From the NCBI RefSeq assembly GCF_024713945.1, contig NC_134680.1, positions 2,752,001 through 2,816,000 on the forward strand: a DNA stretch of 64,000 bases. The letters are read 5' to 3'. Under the pieces are notes generated by a model. That model saw nothing but the letters and a program-made list of their open reading frames with translations. It had not been told where the DNA came from and did no database searches. Positions 1,595 to 63,667 of this stretch are shown piece by piece (within the stretch, counting starts at the first letter, position 1; the number at the start of each line of letters is the position of its first letter). The translations under genes and the position numbers were made by a program. The DNA comes from Dermatophagoides farinae (Eukaryota; Arthropoda; Arachnida; Sarcoptiformes; Pyroglyphidae).

Positions 1595-3818
<2,224 letters not shown>

Positions 3819-15576: not shown

Positions 15577-15721
15577 TGTCAAAACAAAAATAATTTTATT
15601 TTATTCACTTCTTTATATCAATTTACAATTGGTACACAAAAAACACTGATCAATCGTCTTCACTCAAAAAACCGTTGTGTTTTTTATTTTCGCTCACGAC
15701 CCCTTCAGAAATGTCGTGACA
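15577..15721 (-). repeat. LTR (3' LTR in element orientation)
   Basis: 145-bp terminal repeat with TG...CA ends. It is the same as the copy at 19799-19943 over its full length by eye. On the element strand it contains an AATAAA that could serve as poly(A) signal. The element's frame ends inside it. Confidence 0.95.
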
Positions 15722-18700
15722 TCTCCCCGCCCCTATTTTGAATTTTCCCGGGTGATGATACAACCGTAGTTTGTTGACGTTGATTATTTCCGTTTCCCGT
15801 TTTGTGGGTTGGTTTGGTCGATTTATTTCCACATTTGATTCCGATACGATTTTCAATATCTTGTATGGGCCCTCCATAACGGGAGTCAACTTGCCATTAT
15901 TTGGATGCCATGCAATTTCCACAAGGACATCATCATTAACTTGAAATTGTGGTCTTTTAAATTTTCGATTATATGTTTCTTCATTTTTATGGTGATGTTT
16001 TTGACTGTGTTGGTTGGCGATCTCTCTTGCTTCTTCAATTGTCACTTGATTGTCCATTTTGAATTGCTCATAAGGCAATATTCCGTACAATAAAAATGCC
16101 GGTGAAAACCCAGTTGCCTCATGAGGAGAATTATTATATTCGTGAACGACTTGTTCCATCAATGTCGCCCAATTCCTACACTTGACATCTGGGTCGTTTA
16201 TCTTACACCTCAACCGTTTCATCAATTCTTGATTCGTTCGTTCGTTAAGCCCATTACACTGTGGGTTTTGCGTCGACGTCAACAATCTTTTTATGTTGTT
16301 ACTTTCCAAGAATTTCTGGTATCGCTTCGACAGGAAAGCAGCAGCTCGATCTGACAAAATTCGTTTGATTGGACCAACTTTTAACATCTGCTTGACCACT
16401 TCGATATAGGTCTCCATTGACGTTGATGTATGGGGAAAAACCCAAGCGTATCTTGTACAATGATCCATGACGAGGTGAACCAAATTCTTTCGTGAACCAT
16501 ATTTCCCTAACCCCAACACTGTATCGATTGATATCAGATCAAATGGTTCACTTGATGGAGGCAGTGTACCGAGCGTTGAGAATTTCCTTTCTTTGAATCT
16601 TTTGTTCTTTTGACATGTTTCGCAATGCTTAACATAATTACTGATATCACAGATCAAATTTGGCCAATAATACGTCGGTGAAATGAGGGAGATCATCTTT
16701 TTTGTTCCCACGTGTCCAAATCGGTTATGGGCTTCGTTCAAAATCTTTGGTCTAAGGTTGGATGGTACAACAATTTTCTCCAGACCCTTCCGCCTCCTAA
16801 TTCTGAGTCCATCAACCATTTCAAATTTATTAACATCAGACATATTCTGTTGTTCTTGTTCCAATTCTTCCTTTGTAAGCAAATTGACCTTAACGAAATT
16901 GACCGGTGCACGCGATAATGCATCGGCTTCATAATTCGTAGAACCTTTCTTGTACTTGATGATTAAATCGTACATTGAGATGCGTAGCGACCATCTAAAT
17001 AATCTACCATTCAGACGTTTACATGATTTAAGCCATTGTAAAGCTGCGTGGTCGGTGACCACCGTGGTCGGATTACCATCGACGTAGCAGTGCCATTTCT
17101 TGAGAGACTCTACTATCGATAAACATTCTAATTCGGTGATCGTGTAATTGATTTCATGTTTCAACAATTTTCTTGAATAATAGGCTATCGGTAATTCTTC
17201 ACCATCCGGATGCTTTTGTTTCAAAACAGCCCCAATACCAGCTTGACTTGCGTCACAGTAGATGATTGTTGGCAAATTCGGATTGAAAATATTTAGAATG
17301 GGATGTTTTGTTAAACAACTTTTGATTTCATGGAAAGCCTTCTGGCAATCGGTCGACCACACCCAAGGGCAATCTTTGACCAATAAATCGGTTAGTGGTT
17401 TCCTTAATAAGGCATGATTTGGAATGTACTTTTGATAAACATTTTCCATTCCTAAGAATCGTTGTAGTTCTTTAATGTCACACGGAACTGGAAAATTTTC
17501 GATTGATCGAATGTTGTCTTTATTTGGTTGGACTGAATTGAATGATATACAGTGGCCAAGATATTCGATTTTCTCCTCAGCAAAATGACATTTACTGGGT
17601 TTCAATTTAATATTTTCTCGTTGACATGCTTCCAGTACTTTTTTGATATCATCAAGGTGTTGTTCAAAATCATCACTGAACACTATGATATCGTCGAAAT
17701 AATTTTCTACATTCTTCAATTGATGTTTCATGATGACACCCCTAATTGCTCTTTGAAACGTGGCCGGGGCATTTTTGAGGCCAAATGGCATAACCAGCCA
17801 TTCCAAATGTTGATTATGTGTGGAGAAGGCCGTTTTTGGGATATCTTCAGGTGCAATGGGTACGTGCCAGTAACCATTTGCAATATCGAATTTTGTGAAA
17901 TATTTTTTCCCATGCAATTTATCAATGATATCATCAATTATCGGGATCGGTTGTTTGTCGGTTATGGTGACGTCATTTAACTTCCGATAATCGATGCACA
18001 TTCTTGTTTTTCCTTCTCCTTTCTTTTCGGCCAATGTCACCGGAAAAGAATAAGGCGATGTAGAAGGCCTGACCAACTTTTGCTGCAACAAGTTGTGGAC
18101 CGTCTCATCTATGATTTTTTGTTCTCTCGGCGACGTTCGATACGGTTTCAAGAATATCGGCATTTCGTTGGAGAGGTCTATTCTATGATGTTGGTGATTG
18201 ATGTATCCAACATCACTTTTCGATTGAGCAAATACATCGCCGTACTGGTTGATCATTTCACGAATACAGTGACGTTGATTTTCGTTCAAATTTTGATTAA
18301 TATGATATTCTTGTTGATTTGACGAATGTTGCACATTGTTGACAATTTTATCACATTGTTTTAAGCAATTATCATTTAAATCAAGGCTGAGATCGAAGAG
18401 TTGGCTATTGTCGAGACCTAACAAGAGATTAGTAGTCAAATTTCTAACCACGTGAGCTTCGACACATCGAGTGATTCTCCCGATCTGTAGATTGATTTTT
18501 ACGCGACCCAATGACTGTGTCAAATTATCAAGTTGACGGATATTAATGATTGAATTTTTAATTATTTGTAATTTTAATTGATCAAACAAGTTTTTAGAAA
18601 TACAGGTTATTTCGGCTCCCGTATCAATAAACGCTCTGATTGGTTTGTTGTTTACAAGACAATTAAAATAAATCAAGCCGTTGGGTCGCCAAGCACGTTT

Positions 18701-19759
18701 TTTTGGAATGGTCTGAGCAACGACGTTTTCTGCAGATTTGGTGGTGCTGTCGGTACAAATAACCAATGAATGACGTCTTCCACATTTTTTGCACGAATAA
18801 TTTGATTTACATTGATCGCTTTGATGATTTCCTTGAAGGCAAACGAAACAAAGTTTCTTTCTCACTGCAATATCTTTTCGATCTTTGTTTGTCATATTGT
18901 CGTTGCAGTAAATGGACTTGTGATTTCGTCGACAGAAGACACAGTTGGCACGAGTCGACACATTAACTTGGTTTGTTGTCATTATGTCCCGATTTCTCAT
19001 ATAAATTTTTACATCTTGGACCAAGAATTCAATGAGTCCAGAGCATGTTGACCCATGTCTGGCTGCCTCTGGCGAATACCATTTCGACAATATCGTCGGG
19101 CGTATCACTTCTTCGATGACATACGAATCCAACCCGTGGTCAACTGCTTCTCGGTGTAGGCAAGCCATTTCATCGACGATTTTTTGCATCCCGTCGAGAT
19201 CATTCACGTTTATCGTAGGTAACATTTTGATTCTATTAATAATGATATCCGAAATCCTTCGTTTGTCTTGATACCGTTCCTTCAAGATGTCCTTTGCTCG
19301 TTCATAATTGTCTTCCGTCTCCAACAAATTTGCCACTAACCGTAAAGGTTCATCTTTTAACATCGATTTCAATGTAAAGAATTTTTCGTCAATTCGTAAT
19401 GCTGGGTCACCATCAACAATTCTCAAAAATTCGCGAAAAAATAGGTTAAATTGAATGATATCGCCATTAAACGTCGGCAATGCCCTTCGTTGGTACTTGA
19501 TGGCACGTTCTGTATTTGATGTCGTTGTTACCGAGAAATAATTTATCAAGACTTGGCATTTTCGATTGTATGATTCAAACTTCTCTTCATCGAAATCAAT
19601 TTCCAATAATTCGGTCTCCACTGCATTCAGATCTTTGATTAAATTGATGATTTCTGTTTTGGTTGTTTCATCTTTGTCCAACAGATTTAAAACGGCATCG
19701 CCGTGTTTCTTTGTCACCTTGTTTCGTAAATTTGCACGTTGTTTTTTCTTGTCATCCAT
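15650..19759 (-). CDS. Gag-Pol polyprotein of the LTR element
   Basis: One frame of about 1,369 residues from the first ATG. Parts in order: a Gag with a DUF1759-like block (TFNGDIIQFNLFFREF, in roughly the first tenth); three CCHC-type knuckles in the spacing typical of BEL/Pao Gags (CVFC, CFVC and CKKC groups); an aspartic protease with DTGA; a reverse transcriptase with the YFDD active site and FGLKNAPATFQ, typical of Ty3/Gypsy; RNase H; then integrase with its HHCC zinc finger, D-D-E core and a C-terminal GPY module. Gag and Pol share one frame. A BEL-type Gag in front of a Gypsy-type Pol is the notable point. Family assignment is by motif only. Confidence 0.92.
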   Translation of the reverse strand: MDDKKKQRANLRNKVTKKHGDAVLNLLDKDETTKTEIINLIKDLNAVETELLEIDFDEEKFESYNRKCQVLINYFSVTTTSNTERAIKYQRRALPTFNGDIIQFNLFFREFLRIVDGDPALRIDEKFFTLKSMLKDEPLRLVANLLETEDNYERAKDILKERYQDKRRISDIIINRIKMLPTINVNDLDGMQKIVDEMACLHREAVDHGLDSYVIEEVIRPTILSKWYSPEAARHGSTCSGLIEFLVQDVKIYMRNRDIMTTNQVNVSTRANCVFCRRNHKSIYCNDNMTNKDRKDIAVRKKLCFVCLQGNHQSDQCKSNYSCKKCGRRHSLVICTDSTTKSAENVVAQTIPKKRAWRPNGLIYFNCLVNNKPIRAFIDTGAEITCISKNLFDQLKLQIIKNSIINIRQLDNLTQSLGRVKINLQIGRITRCVEAHVVRNLTTNLLLGLDNSQLFDLSLDLNDNCLKQCDKIVNNVQHSSNQQEYHINQNLNENQRHCIREMINQYGDVFAQSKSDVGYINHQHHRIDLSNEMPIFLKPYRTSPREQKIIDETVHNLLQQKLVRPSTSPYSFPVTLAEKKGEGKTRMCIDYRKLNDVTITDKQPIPIIDDIIDKLHGKKYFTKFDIANGYWHVPIAPEDIPKTAFSTHNQHLEWLVMPFGLKNAPATFQRAIRGVIMKHQLKNVENYFDDIIVFSDDFEQHLDDIKKVLEACQRENIKLKPSKCHFAEEKIEYLGHCISFNSVQPNKDNIRSIENFPVPCDIKELQRFLGMENVYQKYIPNHALLRKPLTDLLVKDCPWVWSTDCQKAFHEIKSCLTKHPILNIFNPNLPTIIYCDASQAGIGAVLKQKHPDGEELPIAYYSRKLLKHEINYTITELECLSIVESLKKWHCYVDGNPTTVVTDHAALQWLKSCKRLNGRLFRWSLRISMYDLIIKYKKGSTNYEADALSRAPVNFVKVNLLTKEELEQEQQNMSDVNKFEMVDGLRIRRRKGLEKIVVPSNLRPKILNEAHNRFGHVGTKKMISLISPTYYWPNLICDISNYVKHCETCQKNKRFKERKFSTLGTLPPSSEPFDLISIDTVLGLGKYGSRKNLVHLVMDHCTRYAWVFPHTSTSMETYIEVVKQMLKVGPIKRILSDRAAAFLSKRYQKFLESNNIKRLLTSTQNPQCNGLNERTNQELMKRLRCKINDPDVKCRNWATLMEQVVHEYNNSPHEATGFSPAFLLYGILPYEQFKMDNQVTIEEAREIANQHSQKHHHKNEETYNRKFKRPQFQVNDDVLVEIAWHPNNGKLTPVMEGPYKILKIVSESNVEINRPNQPTKRETEIINVNKLRLYHHPGKFKIGAGRCHDISEGVVSENKKHNGFLSEDD
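15722..15736 (-). other. polypurine tract of the LTR element
   Basis: On the element strand this reads TAGGGGCGGGGAGA directly before the 3' LTR. This is the expected place and composition for plus-strand priming in LTR retrotransposons. Confidence 0.75.
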
Positions 19760-19798
19760 TTGGGAATTTTGCTGCACGGACTTTATCCTGTTGGCTAA

Positions 19799-19943
19799 TG
19801 TCAAAACAAAAATAATTTTATTTTATTCACTTCTTTATATCAATTTACAATTGGTACACAAAAAACACTGATCAATCGTCTTCACTCAAAAAACCGTTGT
19901 GTTTTTTATTTTCGCTCACGACCCCTTCAGAAATGTCGTGACA
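19799..19943 (-). repeat. LTR (5' LTR in element orientation)
   Basis: 145-bp terminal repeat, identical by eye to 15577-15721. The presumed promoter of the element lies here. No tRNA primer-binding site was confidently assigned just inside it. Confidence 0.95.
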
Positions 19944-42045: not shown

Positions 42046-43695
42046 TTAAAAATATGTTTGAAATAGATTTGAAATTAGTATAACATTGACGAAGAAAAAT
42101 AAAAGGCTACGAAAATTATCATCCCTTGTTATGGTGAATATATCACCACAACGAATACCGATCATATCTGTTTTTAGCTGTACATGTGTTTCAAGTAATT
42201 TCAAACGAAATAGAATTAAACGTATTGGTAGATGACAATGATATGGATATCGTGGATCTATGCGTATGTGTACGATTTTATTACGATTAATATGACTACT
42301 ACTATTATGATCATATATCATTTGTTCAAGACATGGTATCATACATCTTGAATAGACATTCAATCGTGATAATAATGAGAAACCGACTATTGCGAATCCA
42401 AATGTTGCTGCAAATACCAATATCAATGCATAACGTATAAATTCTTCACTACGTAAATCCAATAATAATACTAATTCCATATCATTGACAAATATATAGA
42501 TCTGATAGAATATTAGAATAAATATAGAGATTTCTCTTGCAAAACGCATAATTTTTCCATTAATTTCATTCAATTTAAATAATAATTTTATACGATGTTC
42601 ATGTGGTGTCGATAATTTAAGCAATAACATTCTTGATCTTACATGTTCATATTGAAAACGAAATAATAATGCCGATACAAGTAGAATGTTTAGCCATGAT
42701 ATACTGAATGAAACGACACGAAATGTTTGATATAATAAAATTGCATTGAAAAATATAAACGTAAACCAGAATATCATCGGCAATTCATAATGAAAGTAAC
42801 CAAGTGAAAAATCAAATATAATAATGATGAGAAAGAATATTGCTAATATTATACCAAGTATCGGTATTGCACGTATGAAAAAATCTAACAAACAACAAAG
42901 TGAACGTAATTGTTCACGATCATCAATGAATGAACATTGTATGGATCCTGATCGATTAAATTTATTCCATTTTATCTGTTTTGTTCTCGATTCATTAAAA
43001 CTGCTATCACCAAATGTTTGTCGAAATATTTTATCCCATTGTTTTAGCTGTATGAATAAATTATATCGTCGAATCGGATTCAATACAATTGACCATGATA
43101 TATAGGCTAAATATGAATTATTAAAAAAAAAAATTAATTCAAAATCAATCAAACAGTAATAATACATATACTTACTGAGCAAAAATTCACAGAAAAATGA
43201 TGTCGCTAATGCTAAACTAAATTGATAACGATTTTGTCCATAAATAAATAACGGTACGAACAAAATGTTATGCCAACCAAGTCGATGATCATTTTCATTT
43301 AAATCATATGATTGTAAACTTGCGAATAATCGTATTAGATTCAATAGACCAGGTACAGTGTATAGAATAATAACACGTATACTACGTCGATGATCAATTG
43401 GTTTTCTATTACAAATCTCTTCAAATCCATTCATTGGTATTAGATTCATTAGGATCATAAATTTTATTAGTGAACGAAATGGATTACGACGATAACGACG
43501 ATGAATACGATATCGTATATATTCATATATTGATGATAATTTTCTAATATTCATTATCACTTTTTGATCATCAATGAATTTATTGCTACTATTACAATCA
43601 TTGATGGTGGTGGTGGTGGTGGTCGTCGTTTGATCGACAACATTCGAACGATGAAATAGGTTTTCATTCCCATTATGTTCAACAGTGATAGCCAT
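42046..43695 (-). CDS. gustatory-receptor-like 7TM protein GR1 (2 exons)
   Basis: Multi-pass protein of 526 residues after removal of a 69-base intron (43107-43175, GTAAGT donor, TTTAG acceptor); exons 43695-43176 and 43106-42046. About seven hydrophobic segments lie between a T/N-rich N-tail and the C-terminus. The end has the arthropod gustatory-receptor pattern: a helix with FRLKLLETHVQL, a Gly-Ile-Arg-Cys-Gly-Asp turn, IFTITRDDNFRSLLFFFVN, and a closing hydrophobic helix ending in QTYF. Probably a ligand-gated cation channel subunit in chemosensory neurons (family inference). The classic TYhhhhhQF ending is only partly visible. It shares layout and intron position with GR2. Confidence 0.72.
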   Translation of the reverse strand: MAITVEHNGNENLFHRSNVVDQTTTTTTTTINDCNSSNKFIDDQKVIMNIRKLSSIYEYIRYRIHRRYRRNPFRSLIKFMILMNLIPMNGFEEICNRKPIDHRRSIRVIILYTVPGLLNLIRLFASLQSYDLNENDHRLGWHNILFVPLFIYGQNRYQFSLALATSFFCEFLLSKYMYYYCLIDFELIFFFNNSYLAYISWSIVLNPIRRYNLFIQLKQWDKIFRQTFGDSSFNESRTKQIKWNKFNRSGSIQCSFIDDREQLRSLCCLLDFFIRAIPILGIILAIFFLIIIIFDFSLGYFHYELPMIFWFTFIFFNAILLYQTFRVVSFSISWLNILLVSALLFRFQYEHVRSRMLLLKLSTPHEHRIKLLFKLNEINGKIMRFAREISIFILIFYQIYIFVNDMELVLLLDLRSEEFIRYALILVFAATFGFAIVGFSLLSRLNVYSRCMIPCLEQMIYDHNSSSHINRNKIVHIRIDPRYPYHCHLPIRLILFRLKLLETHVQLKTDMIGIRCGDIFTITRDDNFRSLLFFFVNVILISNLFQTYF

Positions 43696-46136: not shown

Positions 46137-47490
46137 ATGGATCAGGAACCATTAATATCATCAGTAGTATTAATATCTTCTTCACTTATGACGAATAAGT
46201 TAATTATGAAAAAAATCTTCATTCTGGTCGCAACTATATCATTGATTTTATCAACATTTTCATCGATATTGATCAAAGCTGAAACAGTTCATGGTACAAC
46301 AATATTGGTGCGTTTTTGTCATTTTTAATTGCAACCATCACCATCTAGTGTCTAGTTTTGAAAAAAAAATTTATAATTTTTTTTTTATTTTTCATGGAAA
46401 ATAGAATTGGCCTTATGTTAGTCAACGATCAAATGGTCAATTTGAAGGCTTTTGTATTGATCTACTCAATGAATTGGCACCATTAATGGGTATCGCATAT
46501 ACATTATCAACTGTTTCGGACGGTCAATATGGTGGCTGGATCGCACCAAATGGTACGGTTAATGGAATGATTGGTGAAGTGATGCGAAGCGAAGCCGATT
46601 TTGCTATCGGTGATATAACCGTATTAACAAATCGTGCCCGATTTGTTGATTTTACATTACCATTCATGGAATATGGTCTAGCGGCATTGATTCGTCGTGA
46701 TATTCTTGAACGTTATGGCAATCATATACGTACGTTTAAAGATCTTTCTGAACAAACGACAATTCGTTATGGTGTTAAAAAACATGGGGCTAATCTACCA
46801 TTATTTCATGATAGTCCAACTGTTGCCAAAATGTATAGCTATATGGATACACATCCATCGGTTTTTGTCGATGGTGAACGTGAAGGATTACAACGTGTTA
46901 AACACGAACGTTATGCATTCATATCGGAATCACCATTTGTTGAATATATTGTACAACGTGATTGTGATCTCGTTGCTATCGATGATCGTCGACGTAATTT
47001 TCAATTTGAATATGCTATTGTTGTGGCAAAAAATTCACCGTTAAAAAATCGTTTCAATCGTGCTATTCGCCAATTACGTAATGATGGAAAATTACGTGAA
47101 CTTAAAGAACGATATTGGCTATATCCAGGACGTAATTGTCCAAATGATATTGATTATAATCCAAATATGGATAAATCAAAGCCAGAAATACGATTTACTG
47201 ATCATACAAATCAGATGAAACCAAATAATAATAATGATGATAATTCTTCCGGTCGATTAAGACATCATCAATATGGTGGTGGTGGCCACCGTATACAACC
47301 ACATGATCGTGTGGATGAAGATGATGTTGAATTGATAAAACCACGACCCGATCGAACACGAACACGTCGTCCAATAAAGAATATACATTCCCGAAATTTT
47401 GCACACACAAACTTTATATTTACGACAAATATTTCGAAAATTTTTTTATCAATAATTATGACTAGAATTCTTATCGTTAATTTTTATTAA
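46137..47490 (+). CDS. secreted channel-less glutamate-receptor ligand-binding domain (S1-S2) protein
   Basis: Exons 46137-46307 and 46405-47490, 418 residues. N-terminus: a signal-like segment, MKKIFILVATISLIL, from an internal Met at residue 24. Then the S1 lobe of an ionotropic glutamate receptor: QFEGFCIDLLNEL (69-81), DGQYGGW with Tyr99, NGMIGEV, and an ITVLTNRARFVDFTLPF block with Thr129 and Arg134. Immediately after comes the S2 lobe: FKDLSEQTTIRYG, KMYSYMDTHPSVFV, the YAFISESPFVEYI block with Glu232, and ERYWLYPGRNC. Cys244 and Cys302 match the conserved S2 disulfide. In true receptors M1, pore loop and M3 separate S1 and S2; here only residues 156-163 do, inside one exon. The usual Ser-Thr ligand pair in S2 is Ala186-Asn187. 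The tail (310-418) is N/H/R-rich with a mildly hydrophobic end. It likely binds an amino-acid-like ligand outside the cell. Confidence 0.9.
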
Positions 47491-47731: not shown

Positions 47732-49553
47732 TCAATGAAAATTGAAATAATATTTAAATAAATTAAACAAAAGCAATAGATTCATAATGAATGATAAAAT
47801 TAGATTAATAATGGAATAATGTGTCAATGCAAATTCACCATTACAATTGAAACCGATACGATTCTCAAGAATTTCCTGTTCAAGATGAGCCATTTTAAAA
47901 CGCCATAATAATGTATGTATACGATTATTATTTTTACGGTGACGATTTTCCATTATCAATGTCGATGATTGTTGTAATGAAATATTTGTTTGAAAATCAT
48001 CATTGATATTACGATTAATCATATTATTATGATGATGATGATTATTTTGATTTGCAAACGATATGGCCAATAATGGATTATTATGATAATTATTATTAAT
48101 GAATAATTAATAGCCATCATAAAGGCAATGACGTATGATTGGTATCATACTTCGTGAATAATAATTTAATCTGGCTAATGCACCAAACAGTCCCAAAGCA
48201 TAGCTAGTAGTAAAACCAATTACTGAACCCACTACCAAACCTAGAAATGAATTACTTTTTGCATTGATAAACAAAAACAATAACATATCCTGTGAGAATA
48301 GATAAAACGTATAGAATATAACTAGAAATGGTTTCATCGTTCCTGAAAGACGTATAATCTCTTCGTTGATACGAAAAATTGATCGCATTAATTCAATTTT
48401 CATATGCATTGCAATTGGTGTTTTACGTAAAAATCTCCATTCCAATTAATCAACAAAAAAAGAGAATGTGATTGAAAAAAATATATATGGAAAATATATG
48501 CTGGAAAAAAGTACCTGGTTCATACATCATTTGTTTCGTACGTATAAAATTTAGCCGTATCAGATTGAATCGCCATCGATATGAATATACAGACATGATA
48601 ATAAAATGTAACCAATATGATGAAATCACCATGATTTGATGAATTTGAAATATAAACACAGAATCCATAATAATCATTTGTGGATGAAATAACCATGGTA
48701 AATGTGGACGTTTTGATTTATAATAACCAATAAACGTATCCAAACAAGTAAAAAATAATGATACAATAGTAAAAGATTTGATGAATAATTTATATAGGAT
48801 TAATATATGATTATAAAGATGAGCGGTGAAACAGAATGCTTTGGGACTACAATCTGGTGTTGGACTCATTGTGTTAAAGCCAAACCAATGATTAGTTTCA
48901 TGGGATAATGCCAAAAAAATTTGCATGAGAGATACGGGTATCATATTTGATAAATGCGGTAATCTCATCCCTTTCATTCGTTTGACCATATTTTCGTAAC
49001 AACGATTCAAATGCTCAAATCCTTTGAACACGTGTTTAGCATTCGATGGATCGATAAATATTTTAAATGATATACCATCTATCATAGAAAAAACAGAATC
49101 AAATAATCGAATCATATACAAAAACGGGTTATATGTTTTCAAACACTTACACATTGATGTTAAACAAATGAATACAATGGCAAACGTTAGATGTAGGGTC
49201 TGTGATTTTGCTTCATACCAAATGAATGGCCGATAACGAAATCGGGCAACCAAATCGATATGATAATTACGTTCCATTGAATTTAAACCAAAACGTAATA
49301 GATTAAATATTGTCGGTAACAATAATAAGGCTAACATTTTCATAAATTTTTTACGATCATATTGATATGTTTGAAATAATTGTTCACGATTATTATATGG
49401 TAATAGATTATGATCAATCATACGATCCAATAATAGATTATATGGATTTGATGGTAAATTCAATGATTGCCGATCATTTTGCATTGTTGTTGTCGTTGTT
49501 TTTATTGTTGATGGTGATAACAATATCATTGATGAATCACGAAAATGTAACAT
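47732..49553 (-). pseudogene. gustatory-receptor-like GR2 with one in-frame stop (3 exons)
   Basis: Exons 49553-49151, 49078-48526 and 48434-47732. The first intron (72 bases) sits at the same place as GR1's. The second joins in frame if the donor GTATGA at 48525 is used; a competing CAG/GTAC donor at 48514 would shift the frame. Hydrophobic segments and the phrases ARLNYYSRSMIPI (GR1 has SRLNVYSRCMIPC) and GFNCNGEFALTHYSIINL near the C-terminus place it in the GR1 family. One TAA (48109-48107) interrupts exon 3 after CLYDGY, in a variable polar loop. The frame then stays open for 125 codons through the intact last helices. So it is a recent null allele, a base error, or a gene using stop readthrough. 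Confidence 0.7.
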
Positions 49554-50660
49554 ATTTTCAACAAAAATATTTTTCGTTGGAATAACAGAATTTCAATTAG
49601 TGGCATCCACTTAACTTTACAATGATCAGGAATGATTCATTTTCTTTTCATTCCATTTTCTTTTAGATTTTACAGAATTGTGTATGTGTGCATGAGAGAC
49701 AAATATGTGGTTCTTTTAATTTAATTTATTGACGTTTATGAATCATGTGACACTTGTTTTGTCTTGATTCTTGATTAATGTACGTTTGTTTTTCATATTT
49801 TTTTTTTTGCTTTTGCTTACTTTCAATTGCACATTTAAAGATCGACAATTTCCGGCCATGACGAATATGATATATGTACATACATTATCGCCCGTACACC
49901 ACTACTGGATAGTAAGACGACCGAATAAAATTCTAAAAGGTATGATATGAAACAACAACAATGATGATAATGATGATGATGATTCTATGTGAAAAAAATG
50001 AGAAAAAAATGTGAATGAATGGGGAGAAAAACAACTAATAAAGTGATACATACCAAACAAATGGAAGGGAAAGCAAAAAAAAAAAATAGAAAAACATTTC
50101 AAATATTAATCAATCATTGATACAATTATCTTGGAATGCATATATTGTGTGTGTGTATGTGTGTTTGTATAATTATTCATTAATTTTGAATGACTGTTAC
50201 CAAGGGATATAAGGATTCGTTATTCGAATGTGGATTTTATGTTTATGTTTTGTGGTAGTTTTTTTGTGGAATTTCTTGAAATTTATTCGATTAGCGTGTA
50301 ACTTAGCATACATTTTTCCCCTTGTCATAAAAAATATGAGAACAATGAGTAACTTTTCGTTGTTTTTCATCTTCATTATCGATGAAATATTTAATATCAA
50401 GATTTTTAAATTCTTCTTTTTCATCATCATTTACGAAAAAAAAATTCGAATAATCTGATAATGATCATATTTTCTGTAGAATTTAATTTTTTTTCTTCTT
50501 CTTTGTTTATTTATCTACAATGTTTGATTAAGGTTTTTTTTCTAAATTCTGTTGATATTATTAAAAATTGAAGAAAATGAGAATTTTTTTTTCTAGAGAA
50601 AATAAAACAGAATATTCAAATGAAGATTTTGATGATGATCGATAACAATGGTAATGATCA
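49554..50660. other. intergenic, 5' flank of GR2 and 3' flank of GR3
   Basis: About 1.1 kb of AT-rich sequence with GT and GAT runs. The small frames on both strands at 49902-50458 are F/K/I-rich and unsupported. No RNA gene recognised. Confidence 0.5.
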
Positions 50661-52013
50661 TTAAATTCGAATATATTTATAAAGCATTGTGAATAATGTA
50701 AAATTAAATGCCAACATTTCAATGAATTTATATTTAGTAATTAGAAAATATCGTCCCAAATAGAATCCATAATCATTAATTATGATGTTTTGTATGAATA
50801 GATTCATACGTACATTTGTACGGTATTTCGAATGTTCATCATTATTGTCGATATTTTCATCATTTGATTGAAATGTTGATGATAATGATGTTTGTATTAC
50901 ACTCAAATGATAAAGTAATCGATAACAAAATTGATTTTTCGATGGAAAATATGCAACATGTACGATAATAATCTGTGTATAAATGAATTGTATGAATGAT
51001 AGAATCGAAATTAAATTGCTTAATGTTAAATATTGTTCTTCCATTTGTACGAAATGAAATTTATCACCATGATGATGATGACGATGATGAATGAATATCA
51101 TACCTAATATGAATCCAATACGACTGATTAGATCGATGAAAAGAAGATATTCTTGATATGGTTTATGTAGCCAACAAATTTCCAAGAAATTTCGTACATA
51201 ATGTTCATGTATGTTTTTTAAATTCATCATTGAAATCAATGATGTTGATGATTGAACATTGTTTATTTGTTCAATAAATTCTTTCATTTTAATTTTTAGA
51301 TATTCAACTGTAAACAATAAATATAGCATCGGTATCAATATCTCACCGAAAAGAAAATATAATCGTCTCCACATGATTGTATGCATGGTTAATGTGGATA
51401 ATAAACGTGTGAATCCCATACGATTACCATGAAGATATTCAGAAATATTGAACCAATAAAGCCTTATATAAATGATTGCTAAACTAATGGTTGTCGAATA
51501 ATAACAAAATCCAGTAATAATACGAAATATTCGAAAAAAATGTAACAATTTTTGTCGTGATGATAATTTTAATTCATTTTTCACTGCCATTATGATAGCT
51601 TGTCGAATCTGAATGAATGAACATCGATAACGAATAACATGAATGTAGATATTTATCCATTTATATTCAGCCACAATCAATGCAATAATAATGGTCCATA
51701 TGATTGATTCAATTGAATGATGGTCAATGCCCATATCGATGATAAAATAATGAAAATAATCGGATAACTGTCCGGTAATTATCAATAAAAGTACAATGAT
51801 TAATATCCATGAATTAATTGTCGTAATTAATGTATGCAAGAATCGTTTCCTTTGAAAAAATCTTACACGATGATCATGATATTCATCCAATGTATATGAT
51901 GTACGTTGAACATAACGTAATGAAATGTTGAAATAATCATCGAATATTTCTTCAATATTTTCATCTTTTATGCCAAATTTAGCCAACAACCATATGACCA
52001 TTGTCAAATCCAT
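50661..52013 (-). CDS. chemoreceptor-like 7TM protein GR3, single exon
   Basis: About 450 residues from the ATG of MDLTMVIWLLAKFG; the frame is open a little further upstream but only with a TTG. At least seven hydrophobic stretches alternate with short basic loops (for example LITTINSWILIIVLLLIITG, IIWTIIIALIVAEY, YYSTTISLAIIYIRL). The C-terminus reads IINDYGFYLGRYFLITKYKF then a last helix, a pattern like gustatory-receptor tails. A His run (HHRHHHHG) occurs in a loop. It is more diverged from GR1/GR2 than they are from each other. Function as a ligand-gated receptor is inferred. It could instead be another insect-type 7TM family. Confidence 0.6.
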   Translation of the reverse strand: MDLTMVIWLLAKFGIKDENIEEIFDDYFNISLRYVQRTSYTLDEYHDHRVRFFQRKRFLHTLITTINSWILIIVLLLIITGQLSDYFHYFIIDMGIDHHSIESIIWTIIIALIVAEYKWINIYIHVIRYRCSFIQIRQAIIMAVKNELKLSSRQKLLHFFRIFRIITGFCYYSTTISLAIIYIRLYWFNISEYLHGNRMGFTRLLSTLTMHTIMWRRLYFLFGEILIPMLYLLFTVEYLKIKMKEFIEQINNVQSSTSLISMMNLKNIHEHYVRNFLEICWLHKPYQEYLLFIDLISRIGFILGMIFIHHRHHHHGDKFHFVQMEEQYLTLSNLISILSFIQFIYTQIIIVHVAYFPSKNQFCYRLLYHLSVIQTSLSSTFQSNDENIDNNDEHSKYRTNVRMNLFIQNIIINDYGFYLGRYFLITKYKFIEMLAFNFTLFTMLYKYIRI

Positions 52014-52444
52014 TTTTTGACTGAATAAAATTGTTTTCAATTCTGAATGTAAAGTAACAATTGAGAAATAAAGAATTCAAAAACATTGAACATGTCATGA
52101 TGATTTGATGATTGATCATTTTCCATTTTTAATTTAGTAGGTTTTTGTGTCAACATTTTTTTTTTGAAAATTAATGTTTTTCTTTATTTTTAAAAATTCA
52201 TCATCAAAAAATGTATTTGATATTTCCGTATCCAATAGTTTCAGTATCCATGAGTCAATGATGATTGTAATCATAAATTTTTTTTTATTTATTGTACCTT
52301 GATTACTAGAAAGTTTTTATATCTTTTTTTTCTGTCTGTTGGATTTTAATTTGGTCATCACCATCATAAAAATTTTAACAAAAAAAAAAAAAAAAAAATT
52401 AGGATCATTTCTGTTTTATTGTTGTTCTTAGCAAAAAAAAAAAA
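52014..52444. promoter_or_regulatory. divergent promoter interval (GR3 / SLC4A11)
   Basis: 431 bases between two divergent start codons, with long A and T tracts and no distinctive motif. Two possible splice acceptors just above the GR3 start suggest an untranslated upstream exon on the minus strand. Confidence 0.35.
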
Positions 52445-55949: not shown

Positions 55950-57374
55950 TTAACATAGATGAATAGAAACTATGATGTTGAAAAAAAAACAACAACAAAA
56001 AAGAAGAAGAAAATAAAACAGCACAAGTGTCATCATTATCATAAATAGGTGTGTCTAGATATTATTATCATATATATAAATACAAACCTTTGCAAATGAT
56101 TTGACTGATATTAATGTAATTTTTGAATATGTTAAACCATAATGATTATTTGTATGAAATTTTTCAATATAATTCGATAATCGTATTTGTTTTCGTAACA
56201 GCCACCATCGTCGTTGTCGATTTGATGATAATGATGTACAATTTGCTGCCATCGATAATAAACATTTGGAACATTTATGTATCTTAATGGAAAAATAAGC
56301 ACATAATAAATGTGCACCAAATACACCGATCCATTGTTGTAAGGCCATCGATAATGTTAATAATCCTTCTAATAGTGATTGTTGTTGATATTGAATGATC
56401 AATGATCCCATTAGAAATATATTTAATGGTGTTGTTGCCATTAAAAATGTGGTTAACATATGTGAATATTGTCCATCCATTGTTTCGATTACAAGTAATG
56501 TATCCGTATGTTCCATCATGAATCGTTCAATATGATTATAATCATTGATAGAATGTTGCTGTTGCTGTTGTCGTTGTTGTTGTTGTTGTTGTATACTAAT
56601 TTGTCGCCATCGATGCATAATACTTTTCAATAGATGATCACATTGGCCAAGTTTTATAAAAACAATAACAGTAAATAAAAATAAACCAATTGTAACAAAA
56701 ATTAATATATGTGCCATGCAATACAAAACAAACAATGTGAATAGACAATTCATTTCGGTTATAGTAATCAATGAAAAACCAATCAAATTTTTTGGATAAA
56801 TTTTTTCATTCACAATAAATAAACGGATATAAGTATAATGTAAAAATATGTTGAAAAAATTCAATACAATAATGATTAATTGAAACATGCATAAAAATCT
56901 ATATACATTATAACGAATAAATTGACAACAATCATATGATTTTGAATGAAATATAAAGTATTTATAAAGAAAAAATTCACCATTTTGTTCATAGAAAATT
57001 TTACATACAATTGAATATAAACGTAAATGAAAATTTAGATACCAAATTTGATAGAAATATTGTACCAAAAAACACATCGGTATAGCTATTAAATTTAATT
57101 TTTCATCCAATTTAAATAAATATGATAGATCGATGAATATGAAACGATATTCCGGTATATTTGGACTTAGATATGTTAATAATAATCGTAACATGAATAA
57201 CCATTGACAAATAATGATTATTATTAAACAATGGCGATCATGATGTCCATTTTCAATATTATTATTATTATTAATGCGATAAATACGATCCGCACATTGT
57301 TCAATATAATCAATACGTTTAAATGGTGACATTTCATTAGCCATCATAATGGCTACAGATTTTAATTGATTCAT
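55950..57374 (-). CDS. gustatory-receptor-like 7TM protein GR4 (2 exons proposed)
   Basis: First exon 57374-56088 starts at MNQLKSVAIMMANEM; the frame runs on into AAG with a GTTTGT donor. A terminal exon 56054-55950, after a TCTAG acceptor, would add THLFMIMMTLVLFYFLLLF, a final hydrophobic helix as in GR5-GR7. That join is inferred; reading through the donor gives only ten more residues. Seen: seven or so hydrophobic segments, a loop with a poly-Gln run (RWRQISIQQQQ), and the arthropod GR signature HYGLTYSKITLISVKSFAK before the last intron. Total about 463 residues. Likely a chemosensory ion-channel subunit (family inference). Confidence 0.7.
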
Positions 57375-58122
57375 TGTTATTAATAAATAAACCAATCGAT
57401 TTGATCAAAGATTATGATCAATCCAATGAAAATGATAACAATACCACTTTTGCAATGATATGATTCAGGCAAAGAACAAAAACAACTAATGAATGAATAT
57501 GAATAATGAATGTCAAAAATATTTTTTTTTTTTATATTTTTCAAAATTTCGACTGAAATTTCGATTCAAAAAAGAATAGCAACAAAGTTGAAATGGTAAT
57601 GATCATTAATTTATTATCATTATCTTCATTATATGGAAACGATATTGCATAAGCACAAAATCTTTGATAAAGAGAATAGATTAAAAACACAATCGATACA
57701 AACAAATAATCGATGAAAAGGCAATAAAAAAATTATTCAAAAAAAAAAAATTAAAATTCTTCGTATGACTACAACAACAACAACGAATGAATCTTCATAC
57801 ATTCTTAACTTGAACATTTTTTGTTGTTGTTGTTGTTGTTGTTGTTCTTGTGATTCATAGGTTGATAGAATTAATTCTAAATGAAATTCTTTTTTGATTC
57901 TTCCTGCCAAGATCAATCGATGATCAATTCAAATCGATATTAGTTTTTTTTGTGTAAGTTTGTCTGAATGGTTTTTTTCTAATCCTACTGTGATATTCAT
58001 GTTTGGTGCAGCAGAAAAATCTTATTAATGGTTTGCATATTTTTTTTAGCTAAAAATAAAAAAGAAAATCTGGATTGCAAATTTCAATTTATGAATAATG
58101 GATGAAAACGATGAATTACATT
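57375..58122. other. intergenic spacer between GR4 and GR5
   Basis: About 750 AT-rich bases with a GTT run. It should contain the GR4 promoter and the GR5 3' UTR. Nothing else recognised. Confidence 0.5.
57821..57846. repeat. (GTT)n microsatellite
   Basis: Perfect GTT run of about 8 units. Confidence 0.9.
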
Positions 58123-59908
58123 TTAAGCCAAACGTTTCTGTGATGACATTTGTGTTACCTTCAGGAAATAAGCGATAATCAAACCAACAATCTATTTTGT
58201 TGTTATCAAAAAAAGAGAAAGAAAAACATGAAATGAAAGTTCATTTTTTGTTTGTAAATAATCAACAACAATAACAACAACAACAACAAACCTCAAAAAA
58301 TTTAAAATATGTTATGATAAAAAAATTGAAGAAATAGAAGCCCATACGTTTTTTCGATTGATTTTCAATGGCAAACATCAACTTGATATGATCATTGATC
58401 AATTGATGAATAGAAAATGAAAATGGGATAGAAAAAAAAATAGAACGGAAAATGGAAATATGGTCAATATCATTATTGTGTGATGAGGTTAAATTTTTTT
58501 TCTTTTTTTTCCTACTTATAATACTACTTACATCATATGCACAATAGGTATTCAAACGTCCCATTTGTGAAATATTAAAGTTATTCAATATTTTCAATGA
58601 TTTCAATGATTCTTCATAAACAGATGAAGCCGTATTCAATAGAAAAAATATGACAATAATAGCCAATACAACTGAATATAATAATGATATTCGTACGGTC
58701 AAATCGATTGGCATAAAAATGGATGTATATAATACTACATTTATAAATGTAGCGACAAATAATATTAAAAAAAATAATACTTTACTAAAATATTCTGAAC
58801 TAAATTGTTGAATATCATTGCCAATTTGATTAAATTGTCTTCGCATCAAATCGATATGAGACATTGTAATTATTGTTATTTTTCTTGTTCCACATTGTGA
58901 TCGACTCGTATTGGTTGTCCACTTCATTACTAATTCATTAATCTCACGTATACGATAACGAAGATATGAACAAATTATATAAAAATAAATAAGATTCCAT
59001 GAATATGCAGTATATGTAAATGATGATGATACACCAAAAAACACTGACCATGGTAGTCCAAAAATAATGAATTCATTCAATGAACATTTAAACCATAATG
59101 GCCAGGCGCTTAAAATAAATGATACAACACCGACGGTAATCATATTCAATCGACAGAATTGTATACCGAAACGTGTTTTAGCCAATAATTTTGCTACAAG
59201 CTTCGCATCATGTAATCGGGCATCAGATGATGGACAACGGCCACCAAGAAAATCTAATGATTGTAAAAATGTTGGCCGAATTCCACGTATATAATGTATA
59301 ACACACATAAGTTGAACGCTTATACCCATCATCGTATAAACAATGGCTGCAATATTAATATGTGTTTTCGCTCCCATACACCATGGCCAATCACCAAGAT
59401 ATATGAAATAACGACGATTTTCATTCAATTTTGTTGAAATAAATAATGCAACAATACTACGTAGAATATAAATAAATCCAATAGACAATACGAATGCCGG
59501 ATTATAGAACCAATGACGGCGATAATTTTGATCCAAACAATCTGGTCGATAAAGATGTATTCCATAACGATAGAATTGTGTGCCAACACTACGTACAGCA
59601 TATGATGGATCAATCAATTTGAAAGGATTAAATTTTTGTTCAAAATCACCATTCAATAGACTTATTTCACGAATTAACCGATGACGATGGGATCGTTTGT
59701 TTTTATTGTCAATACTTTGATCAATTACCGATTGTTGTTTGATTATTGCATTACGAGACATCATTGTATCGGTTCTCATCATCATCATTCTTTTATCCAT
59801 CTTTTTTCGATTATGATTTTTGAAAATTTTCAAACAACTAAATTTGTTGCTCACATGTAGAACTTGATCATGATCTTTGTGAATGCAAATTATGTATATT
59901 ATCTCCAT
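58123..59908 (-). CDS. gustatory-receptor-like 7TM protein GR5 (3 exons)
   Basis: Exons 59908-58532, 58381-58292 and 58191-58123, all phase 0, giving 511 residues; an ATG at 59800 (MDKRMMMM) would give 475. The second exon is exactly 90 bases and encodes LMFAIENQSKKRMGFYFFNF and following residues. The third is 69 bases and adds the last helix IVGLIIAYFLKV. This exon pattern repeats in GR6 and GR7. Conserved blocks shared with GR6: QFYRYGIHLYRP, FIYLGDWPWCMGAKTHINIA, RGIRPTFLQSLDFLGGR, VGVVSFILSAWPLWFKC and FLLNTASSVYEES. The final three-exon layout with KRMGF before TM7 is typical of arthropod gustatory receptors. It appears intact. Confidence 0.8.
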
Positions 59909-61256
59909 GATTTATATATTCAAATTTATTAATCGTCATAAGAATTAAAAAAAACTAATTATCAATAACCATTGCTATGAAATAGATATGACATAAAGAA
60001 AAAATCAACAAGACAAACAATCAACGATAATGAATAAAATTTTTGTTTGTTTTCTTTTTTAAATGCAAACAAAATATAAGTATTAAAAGGTATGATGATC
60101 AAACAAGATTTATTATCAAACATCACGAAATTGTTTCATTGTAAGATCATCCAATTTATGTTTCTTTTCATATCAAATTCATTATCAATTTTGACTTGAA
60201 ATTAACGTCGTTGTTGTCAGAACAATGAATATTCGTTAATTTCTTTCTGAAAAAGCCAATTTTTTTTCGTAAATTAATAAATCTTATTATTATTTTTCTG
60301 AAAAAAACATGAAAAAAATTCAAAACGATCCGCAAAAAAAATGGTTGTCAGAAAGATTTCCCAATAATGCGTGATTATAAATCATTATTCATCCATTTAT
60401 TATTATAATTTTGTGATTCAACTAATAATCCATTCGTGGTGGGAATTCTCCCCAGTTCTAATGATTCTGACATGAGGTTATTTCAACTATATATGTTGAT
60501 GTAAGTCACAAATCGAGGGAATTATCCATTTTTTATATATTCTAATAATTGCCATCTGTGTTTATTGCCATTTCTTCAGAATGATAATAAATTCAAATTA
60601 AAATCTAGACAATCTATAGTATAGATTCTATACTATCGAGAGAAAATTATCGTAAATTAGAATTCAATTTGTGTGTGTGTGTTTGTGTTTCTGTTTTTTA
60701 TGGTCCGAAAAAAATTGTTACCAATTTTCGTCTCATACATTATTAACGAACAAGAAATAAAAAGAATTCAATTTCAGAATCAACAACAACAACAACTACT
60801 ACGAAATAGACATTTTACACAATCGATAAAAATTGACGATTGTTCATCTCTTGCTCATTGACGTCATCTTATGGCCATATATGACTTTTTTTATTATTTT
60901 TTTTTAAGAAAAATTTTTAATTTTATTCATTATAAAAAACCAAAATCAAAGATTAATGCTACGAAAACACCATTTCCGAAATAATGATAATGATCTGTTT
61001 TTGTTGTGAACAAACAAACCAAAAAAAAAAAAAAAAATGACAATCAATATGGTGCTGAAAAACAATGAAATTCAGAATATTTTGATTGTTTTTGTAACTA
61101 CATTTGAACGATAATTAAATTTTTATTTTTTTATTATTTGTGGATAAAATAGGAATTGAAAATGTTAATGATAATTTATTCTCTGAGAAACAGAATTCTT
61201 TATTTGGTTCTTAAGATTTGTTGTAGAAAATATTTTGCCTTTTTTAATCAATCAAA
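59909..61256. other. intergenic spacer between GR5 and GR6
   Basis: About 1.35 kb. The part from about 60750 to the GR6 stop resembles 63030-63667, so it is the 3' flank of the tandem unit. No other gene; the frame at 60673-60861 is unsupported. Confidence 0.5.
60616..60636. repeat. perfect inverted repeat (10-bp arms, 1-bp spacer)
   Basis: Arms ATAGTATAGA and TCTATACTAT are exact reverse complements around one T. It is AT-rich and may be chance or a small hairpin. Confidence 0.75.
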
Positions 61257-62745
61257 TTAGATCAATTGTTTTGTAAATGATAATTGTACAATTTTCAGAA
61301 AAAACATCATTATAAATGCGGCAATCTAAATTTGTTGGACAATATTAATGATAAATAAAGAATTAGCACTGGAAATTGTTTTGGAAATGTTGAATGAAAC
61401 AATGAATGATTACCTCAAAAAATCTTGAAGAATTTATGATGAACATGCAAAGAAAATAGAAACCCATACGTTTATGGGATTGACTTTCAATAGTTAGTAG
61501 AATCTAAAAATGAAAAAAAATTCAATGAAAATAATTAGAAAAATCAAAAAACGGAATCTTTTTTCACGTAAATACAAACATTATATAATGTACATGGATT
61601 ATGATTTTGAATTTGTGAGATATAAAATTTATTCAACACTTTACGAGAAACGCCCGCTTCATTATAAACTAATGATGCTGTATTCAATAAGAAATAGATA
61701 GCCGACGTTGTTAAAAAACCGCATAGAATAATGAAAAACGTATGGTCAAATCAACAGGTACGAATAAAGCGGTATAAAGTACAACATTTAAAAATGTACC
61801 CAATAATGTGACAATGATTAAGATGACATTTTTATAATAATTGTTATTAAAATGTTGAATATCTTTACCGATACGATTCAAATGAGTACGTAATAGTCTT
61901 AAGTTTGATTTATTCATTAATTTCCGTATACAACGTTGTTTCAATTGCAATTGTGAAAGACGTACTACTAAATCATTAATTTCACGTAATCGATAGCAAA
62001 GAAAATTGCAAAGTATATAGAAATAGGCCATATTCCAGAAATAAGCGCTGAATGTAAAATATGATGCAAAAGCAAATATTATTGACCATGGTAAACCATA
62101 TGTCAGGAATTCAATGGTCGTACATTTAAACCATAATGGCCATGCACTCAATATGAAAGATACAATACCAACAGCACGTGTATTAAATTCACAATAATTA
62201 ACAATCCAACGTGTTTTGGTAAGCAAATTTTCAATATAACGATTATCATTCAAACATGCAGCTGATGGTGTCATTCGGCCAGCTAAAAAATCCAATGAAT
62301 ATAGAAATGTTGGCCGAATGCCACGATGATGATTATAAATGGTTAATAATAATAGACTTATTCCAATTGACACATCACAAATGGCAGCCAAATTTATATG
62401 TGTTTTTGCGCCAATACAATACATATAATCACCCAAATAGATGAAATATTTACGATTTTCATTCGGTTCGGCTGATATGAAGAATGCCGTTATACTTCGG
62501 AATAGATAGACGAATTCCATAAACAATATGAATAATGGATTATAATACCAATTACGGTGATAATCATTCCCAATACATGGTGGCCGATAAATATGGATAC
62601 CATATCGATATAAATGTGTACCAACAATAGATACCCGTAATGATTCGGGTATCGCTTTATATGGATTGATAATAACTTTATCATCATTTTCTAACCGTCG
62701 TCGATGAATGAATAAATTTTTTAATTTTTTTGTCATTTTAAACAT
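61257..62745 (-). pseudogene. gustatory-receptor-like GR6, paralogue of GR5, one frameshift
   Basis: Exon 1 is 62745-61580, exon 2 is 61503-61414 (90 bases) and exon 3 is 61325-61257 (69 bases), matching GR5 exon for exon. Start MFKMTKKLKN. The frame is intact through TIRFSLFYAVF, then meets TAA at 61713-61711. The homologous continuation FLLNTASLVYNEAGV and YISQIQNHNPCTLYN is present just downstream in another frame, so a single 1-base loss (or 2-base gain) near a run of six T separates the parts. Exons 2 (ILLTIESQSHKRMGFYFLCM) and 3 (IAAFIMMFFLKIVQLSF) are open. Either a young pseudogene or a homopolymer base-call error. Confidence 0.78.
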
Positions 62746-63667
62746 TATTATTAATTATATTATTATTATTATTATTCATTCACTTGTTTATTTGATGTTG
62801 TCAATCTGATTACATTTATGCGACTGATTGTTCCATGTTGGTTGAGGCATGAATTTTAATCCAAATCTTTCAACTTTTTCCCATGAATTATATGATTACA
62901 TTTAGCATTTATTTTCAATTTTTCCGAAAAGTGAACAATTTTCTTTATCTATTTATCCGGAAACTAATAATTAACATTGTAATAATGACAATAAACACAT
63001 TTTTTTTCTAGTTTTCACATTAAGGAGTGAGAAATAAAAAGAATTCAGTTTCAGAATCGATAACAACAGCAACAATTTTACGACATAATTACTGTTAAGA
63101 ATAAATTGATCTGGCAACACAATTAGAGAAATAAATAATATACTGTGGCGATAAATTCACGTAAAATTCACACAAGGGACTGGTTGTTTTTAATACCTTG
63201 CTCACAATCAATATATGTGGAATATAAAATCTTTGTAAAATTAATCAATTAATGTCATTGTTGTTTCATATGCCAACAATAATATTTAATCTTTAACAAT
63301 TACATTTACCTCAAACCATAAATATTGATGACATTCATTGCTCATCTATTGACGTTATTTTATGGCCACAAATCATGAATAAAAATTCTTTTTATTAATT
63401 TTTTAAGAATAAACAAAAAGAAATTATATTATAATATTAATATTAATTGTATTTGGATAATGATAAAATCTTTGAATTTTGATTTTTATCCACCATTAAA
63501 AAGTGGAGAAAGATGAATAGAATGATTACAGTCATTTTGAAGTGATGACGCTCACATATTTATCAACTGTTCATAAGCAATAATGATTCATTTCGTTTTT
63601 CTCATCTACTTTTTTATTTCGAATGTATACGTGAATTAAATCCCAAGAAAGAATATATTCAAATTTT
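62746..63667. other. intergenic spacer between GR6 and GR7
   Basis: About 920 bases. An ATT run lies just upstream of GR6 (62755-62775). The right part is similar to the flank 3' of GR6. No other gene recognised. Confidence 0.5.

Follow-up and report, generated by a model that had tools for sequence, protein, structure and literature searches.

The genome of the mite Dermatophagoides farinae almost certainly carries a family of at least eight genes that encode the ligand-binding domain (LBD) of an ionotropic glutamate receptor (iGluR) without the ion channel. Gene A, with which the analysis started, occupies 46137-47490 (plus strand) of the window, that is, of the whole 64,000-nucleotide stretch of DNA analysed (C4:2752001-2816000), and it combines a signal-like N-terminus with both lobes of a kainate-type LBD, the channel being absent. 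A 113-residue group 2 allergen fragment from the same genome matches Der f 2 (1ahk) at 112 of 113 residues, and Der p 2 with a lower score, as expected of D. farinae, the American house dust mite, or of a very near relative. Judged from its sequence, the product is probably an extracellular pore-less Venus flytrap, a stand-alone amino-acid-binding protein of a family with at least eight genes. An earlier note on this DNA had proposed a soluble or tethered binding protein, and this is still the best reading.

Gene A is composed of the following parts:

46137-46307, plus strand: exon 1, signal-like N-terminus and first LBD strand (..GTTIL), with a hydrophobic segment near the N-terminus and no Pfam match
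46308-46404, plus strand: intron 1, 97 bp, GTGCGT..AAATAG, phase 0, splice sites read from the sequence
46405-47490, plus strand: exon 2, LBD, tail and stop in a single open frame of 361 codons
46405-46698, plus strand: S1 lobe segment, PF10613 match
46699-46725, plus strand: S1-S2 linker, which replaces M1, the pore loop and M3; S2 starts again at about 46726
46726-47145, plus strand: S2 lobe segment, ending just past the second conserved Cys
47146-47439, plus strand: tail, about 100 residues, low-complexity and mostly hydrophilic
47440-47487, plus strand: terminal hydrophobic stretch, a possible GPI or tail-anchor signal, alone not statistically special

The start codon is 46137 or the alternative ATG at 46206, the latter giving a compact signal peptide. 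The earlier note had placed S1 and S2 in one uninterrupted exon, with the sole intron upstream of S1; both points held, exon 2 being open throughout with a short linker from 46699, and the intron having GT..AG borders. Between the motifs IRR and KDL, gene A has 13 residues; the same interval is 127 codons long in the channel gene C2:283k, and three PDB crystal constructs have 7 residues there. In a Pfam search, the exon 2 protein matched PF10613 (Lig_chan-Glu_bd, 1.2e-27) and PF00497 (SBP_bac_3, residues 3-238, spanning both lobes, 5.9e-14); there was no match to the pore family PF00060, and the sole further family listed was sub-threshold (E 0.13). Whole-genome searches with PF00060 and PF01094 placed none of the matches listed within the window. 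M1, the pore loop, M3 and M4 are missing, as had been claimed. One correction concerns the C-terminus, where a hydrophobic stretch, away from the M4 position, comes after the low-complexity tail and may be an anchor signal. The best relatives of exon 2 in the PDB were kainate-type LBD constructs (5dtb, KaiR1D, 3.7e-44; 2xxu, GluK2, 5.5e-44), and all 60 shown of the 376 matching chains bear names of animal glutamate receptors. A single-sequence AlphaFold2 model of the LBD had a mean pLDDT of 33.9, too low for use.

The earlier note had suggested searching mite proteomes for LBD matches without transmembrane helices. In the same genome (62.4 Mb, 22 contigs), tblastn with gene A led to seven further genes with S1 running on into S2 without a channel between them:

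C3:661k: gene B, pore-less LBD gene
C3:676k: gene F, pore-less LBD gene
C4:2090-2093k (L041 2865-6747): genes E and D, a head-to-head pair
C4:3376-3380k: genes H and G, a tandem pair (H is L066 5409-7064, minus strand)
C4:3460k: gene C, pore-less LBD gene

The eight genes thus lie on two contigs, C3 and C4. Their frames, in exon models made by eye from the sequence, are intact (288-498 residues) with GT..AG introns, all in phase 0 in the final models. The first exon is signal-like and ends in a GVT-like strand in all eight. Genes B to H have a second intron after a GMIGEV-like motif, gene A has only the first, and F and G have a third within S2. There is no intron between S1 and S2 in A, nor at the S1-S2 junction in the models of B to H. 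Between fixed motifs, the S1-S2 linkers measure 9-21 residues in seven genes (H excluded) and 9-13 in A, B, C, D and G. LBD identity between A and six others (H not included) is 30-42%. None of the 35 PF00060 matches listed, and none of the 46 listed for the amino-terminal domain PF01094, falls at the eight loci. When D, G and part of H were used as queries against the genome, no additional pore-less gene was recognised among the candidates. Even so, several of the 49 PF10613 matches have no listed PF00060 neighbour, and eight is consequently a lower bound on the family. Four such matches (C8:2132074, C4:1281554, C1:879785 and C4:4270289) are either divergent ionotropic receptors (IRs) with a pore that the search missed or additional pore-less genes. 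Gene H is the most divergent member: it has lost pocket residues and carries an acidic insertion ahead of S1 as well as large inserts of low complexity; gene E has a long Pro/Gln-rich tail, and gene D ends directly after the LBD.

An assembly or splicing artefact, in which channel exons exist and are joined in the transcripts, is extremely improbable. The gene models were read by eye, and trans-splicing or an unseen isoform is conceivable; however, the models of A to H have no intron at the S1-S2 junction, no pore match was found at any member among the matches listed, and the layout is common to eight genes on two contigs.

We then compared the pore-less proteins with the channel-bearing receptors of the same genome. 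In an IQ-TREE analysis of 25 rows, the eight pore-less proteins were separated from 17 channel rows with a support of 100/98, each channel row having been assembled from HMM matches to S1 and S2, which were short in four cases. F and H had very long branches joining each other, which makes their placement unsure, and for this reason they were dropped from a second tree that included three IRs. Here the six remaining pore-less rows grouped against 20 others (100/99), and A was sister to a group of B, C, D, E and G (99/96). The IR rows, three with partial S2, stood apart from the pore-less rows (92/91). Neither tree ties the family to any single channel gene.

Introns were then compared, with splice sites read from the sequence. 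The kainate-type channel gene C2:283k has introns at TIVTIG|GEPY and GMIRELIEG|KADMAI, and a second one, C5:3085k, at VTTVK|MEPY and ELIDK|RADLAI. The first two introns of the pore-less genes have the same places and phase as these, intron 1 of gene A being at the place common to both channel genes; C5:687k and C5:3027k have only the second of the two places. These two common places suggest an origin from a genomic copy of a receptor, and common descent with kainate-type iGluRs is borne out both by the places and phase of the introns and by the PDB ranking. The family probably arose from a genomic copy of a kainate-type receptor that lost the amino-terminal domain and the pore. In C2:283k a single exon spans the end of S1, M1, the pore loop, M3 (SSYTANLAAFLT) and S2, up to M4, so that a single in-frame deletion would give the pore-less layout. 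The lack of the second intron in gene A is most simply a later loss. A retrocopy was rejected, as paralogs keep two intron places of the channel genes. Membership of the chemosensory IRs is not supported: the IRs split off in the tree, and the pore-less proteins have no channel.

A bacterial origin of the family is very unlikely on this evidence. Lateral transfer of a bacterial solute-binding protein, to which we give next to no credence, would account for the SBP_bac_3 match across both lobes, and relatives at the family level are found in prokaryotes (of 14 control genomes, 10 have PF10613 and 12 have PF00497). By contrast, a scan of prokaryote genomes, limited in reach to close relatives, yielded 15 pattern matches but no relative by tblastn; transfer was rejected on the intron places common with kainate-type genes and on the exclusively animal names among the PDB chains shown.

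Next, we analysed the ligand pocket of gene A. The following residues were located by alignment columns, with presumed equivalents in GluK2 and GluA2:

46528-46530, plus strand: pocket Tyr, presumably GluK2 Y488 / GluA2 Y450
46618-46620, plus strand: pocket Thr, presumably GluK2 A518 / GluA2 T480
46633-46635, plus strand: pocket Arg, presumably GluK2 R523 / GluA2 R485, the alpha-carboxylate contact
46792-46794, plus strand: Asn where the channel rows have Thr or Ser, presumably GluK2 T690 / GluA2 T655
46927-46929, plus strand: pocket Glu, presumably GluK2 E738 / GluA2 E705, the alpha-amino contact
46963-46965, plus strand: first S2 disulfide Cys
47137-47139, plus strand: second S2 disulfide Cys

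Gene A was said in the earlier note to keep the Tyr/Thr/Arg/Glu ligand contacts and the S2 cysteines. It does keep them, while the Thr of the T690 site has given way to Asn; the pocket is thus not letter-perfect, and a change of ligand selectivity is possible. Tyr, Arg and Glu are present in A to E, and Thr at the A518/T480 site in A to D. At the T690 site, B, C and D have Thr and E has Ile. In F, G and H several contacts are lost or changed (the alignment of G and H is loose there), and so, with part of those of E changed too, not all members can bind glutamate in the canonical way. Both S2 cysteines are present in all eight proteins. At seven pocket sites, a channel-seen residue was found in 0.886 of the A-E cells, compared to 0.608 across 229 columns (one-sided P 0.017); when only channel-conserved columns were counted, the values were 0.733 at six pocket sites and 0.487 over 119 columns (P 0.07). 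Binding of small molecules by the pore-less LBDs is likely.

We also compared the surface by which receptor LBDs dimerise. One column of helix J had the largest loss of hydrophobicity from channel to pore-less rows among the columns compared:

47068-47070, plus strand: Arg replacing the helix-J interface Leu, alignment column

This column has Leu in 12 of 13 channel rows and Arg or Lys in all six pore-less rows (A, B, C, D, E and G; F and H were dropped as too divergent). We take the Leu to be GluK2 L783, a number obtained by chain offset, and the residue reportedly cross-linked to Y521 across the receptor dimer. In the same six proteins, in order, the Y521 site has T/D/E/E/E/A and the R775 site K/I/I/L/L/L. 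At nine interface sites, from a list drawn up after the L783 site had already been seen and including a doubtful label (D528), 0.356 of the residues in A-E were channel-seen, compared to 0.608 over the 229 columns (one-sided P 0.023). Among channel-conserved columns only, the values were 0.200 at four interface sites and 0.487 over 119 columns (P 0.09). For these fractions, as for those of the pocket, G was also dropped on the pore-less side, leaving A-E, and the channel side consisted of 13 of the 17 rows, the four partial or NMDA-like ones being removed.

Compared to random columns the pocket is kept more and the interface less, which points to a stand-alone amino-acid-binding protein rather than a receptor subunit, and there is moderate evidence that selection has preserved ligand binding and not the pairing with channel subunits. 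The interface result bears directly on the idea that the pore-less LBDs pair with the LBDs of kainate-type channels, or act as decoys or auxiliary proteins that tune gating or sequester synaptic ligand. The proteins resemble such receptors and probably descend from them, many channel-type iGluRs are present in the genome to pair with, and tethered forms could sit next to receptors. However, in the six proteins compared (A to E and G) the residues of the canonical LBD dimer surface have been replaced, and the loss of the channel-dimer interface argues against a simple subunit decoy, so that we regard a role as receptor partner as unlikely. Genes B to E have an acidic residue at the Y521 site and a basic one at the L783 site; in a receptor-type dimer these opposite charges would face each other, and a private homodimer is therefore as possible as a monomer.

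Purifying conservation of the pocket, asserted by the earlier note, fared less well. Pairwise comparisons among A-E gave dN of 0.42-0.78 and dS of 1.02-1.67, a ratio of about 0.4-0.6 between very old paralogs whose dS is near saturation, and constraint is in consequence weakly measured; the assertion rests on this ratio and on the intact frames. The ratio and the length of the exon 2 frame fit functional genes. That the family consists of relics, broken receptor copies decaying without function, is highly improbable. Truncation of a channel gene is a usual first step of decay, and dN/dS is not very low, but eight frames have stayed intact after divergence to 30-42% identity (A vs. six others), exon 2 is open over 361 codons whereas the longest open run in 2000 base shuffles was 172 codons, and pocket residues are retained above background.

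A hydrophobic C-terminal stretch with little after it was found in 6/8 pore-less proteins, the C-termini of D and E being hydrophilic. The hydrophobic end of C, G and H is close behind the last Cys, near the position of M4 in the channel gene. Equally hydrophobic ends were present in 9-26% of 579 stop-to-stop frames (at least 40 residues, AT-rich window, real genes included), and the binomial probability of six in eight was 0.005, with a threshold chosen afterwards. These ends are no more than suggestive, and tethering by GPI or by a tail helix is a hypothesis. Delta receptors bridge cells, and an anchored LBD (by GPI or by a single C-terminal segment) might likewise bridge cells or signal via another membrane protein, with the ligand as the switch. 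The number of hydrophobic ends and the place of those of C, G and H speak for such a tethered sensor or adhesion protein. Conversely, two members lack such an end, hydrophobic termini are common in this AT-rich DNA, and no amino-terminal adhesion domain was found in the Pfam search of gene A or among the PF01094 matches listed genome-wide. We consider this role improbable for the family.

The favoured reading, a stand-alone binding protein, can be put as a sequence of events. A copy of a kainate-type gene would have lost its amino-terminal domain, and M1-M3 would have been lost by an in-frame deletion inside one exon, as the layout suggests, with M4 lost or reshaped. The remaining LBD would close on a small ligand, an alpha-amino acid or a similar compound, and there would be no channel for it to gate. 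In the absence of a pore, the output would be either binding itself (buffering, carrying or delivering) or a change of shape read by a partner, and binding itself is favoured because the receptor dimer surface is gone. Some members would be freely secreted and others held by a C-terminal hydrophobic signal. They would work much as bacterial solute-binding proteins do, as buffers or carriers of glutamate-like ligands, and plausibly in the surroundings of chemosensory cells. The full account is offered tentatively: loss of the pore from a kainate-type receptor would have been followed by a radiation of secreted or cell-surface binders that have a dimer surface of their own and serve as perireceptor carriers or tethered sensors. 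A chemosensory or perireceptor role of the pore-less LBDs is likewise a speculative suggestion. According to the available portion of a trombidid mite genome study, mites depend for the most part on gustatory and ionotropic receptors, and no odorant-binding proteins (OBPs) are reported there (PMC6275457), while that of a spider mite study reports a class of OBPs (PMC8269058), which makes the argument for a perireceptor role from the lack of OBPs a soft one. If the role is real, pore-less carriers or sensors arose in a lineage with poorly known chemosensory binding proteins.

Several known systems resemble the family in part. Kainate-type iGluRs (Drosophila KaiR1D/CG3822, vertebrate GluK1-5) share the LBD sequence, the S2 cysteines and, with A-D, most of the pocket residues, and the mite kainate-type genes share the two intron places; by contrast, the pore-less family lacks M1, the pore loop, M3, M4 and the amino-terminal domain, and its interface residues are replaced. 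The likeness to laboratory S1S2 constructs pointed out by the earlier note is real: engineered crystallisation constructs have a similarly short linker at the membrane borders (7 residues, vs. 9-13 in A, B, C, D and G), whereas the mite proteins are natural, are encoded by several genes, and have tails in addition to a signal-like peptide. Bacterial type II solute-binding proteins (SBP_bac_3) have the same superfamily domain and free-standing two-lobe layout, the site of the mite proteins being predicted from the signal-like N-terminus to be extracellular too, but the mite family is animal, was apparently derived by channel loss and has no known transporter partner. Chemosensory IRs have an LBD without the classical amino-terminal domain (PMC2924276), as does the pore-less family; the IRs, however, keep the channel, and the three included here group apart in the tree. 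The nearest precedent found is a human GluA4 transcript of the amino-terminal domain, whose product is described, in the part of the paper available, as possibly secreted (PMC8257547). There too an iGluR extracellular domain is predicted to be released alone, yet it is the amino-terminal domain, encoded by a transcript of a channel gene, and not the LBD of dedicated genes.

The domain is a known one, but no name for a free-standing gene family of this kind was found in the literature. A search by titles and the first parts of abstracts, covering few subscription journals, showed no animal family of LBD-only iGluRs among the papers listed; this is a weak indication that none has been described. 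The main text of the paper on the chromosome-level genome of D. farinae never uses the word "glutamate" (PMC8487952). In the sections available, Croset et al. characterised iGluRs and IRs by PF10613 plus PF00060 (PMC2924276), and a metazoan iGluR survey dropped sequences with fewer than four residues of SYTANLAAF (PMC6307864). An acariform study classified receptors by PF00060, PF01094 and/or PF10613 and, in the portion available, described none as pore-less (PMC7738191). Gene A has the PF10613 match and lacks a SYTANLAAF-type channel (M1-M4, PF00060); as worded in the available sections, the PF10613-plus-PF00060 and SYTANLAAF rules (PMC2924276, PMC6307864) would hide pore-less genes. Surveys that require a pore motif throw out such genes and so have a blind spot.

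Glutamate receptors are thought to have arisen by insertion of a pore into a solute-binding protein. In D. farinae this step has apparently run backwards, and its products have been kept as a gene family. Natural S1S2 proteins provide material to test the action of the binding domain without a pore, and the pore-less LBD family is a candidate new class of extracellular binding proteins in an allergenic animal.

Gene A lies within a run of minus-strand frames (window 42046-43695, 47732-49592, 50661-52076, 56055-57404, 58262-59911 and 61711-62754), itself on the opposite strand. Each of these frames has several hydrophobic segments and no meaningful Pfam match (one sub-threshold; 47732-48106 was outside the scan), and to the eye they are gustatory-receptor-like. 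Among frames of at least 170 residues in 8.5-9.9 kb around the other pore-less loci there was no chemoreceptor-like array; since the array stands beside gene A alone, the chemoreceptor neighbourhood was given little weight. Elsewhere in the window, an uninterrupted retrotransposon-type frame of 1390 residues with aspartyl protease, reverse transcriptase, RNase H and integrase domains lies at 15650-19822 (minus strand), and a rhodopsin-family GPCR, apparently of at least two exons with PF00001 in the first piece, at 1544-2982 (plus strand). About 9-22 kb to the left of the window start, at C4:2729799-2742648, there are matches of divergent channel-bearing PF00060 receptors.
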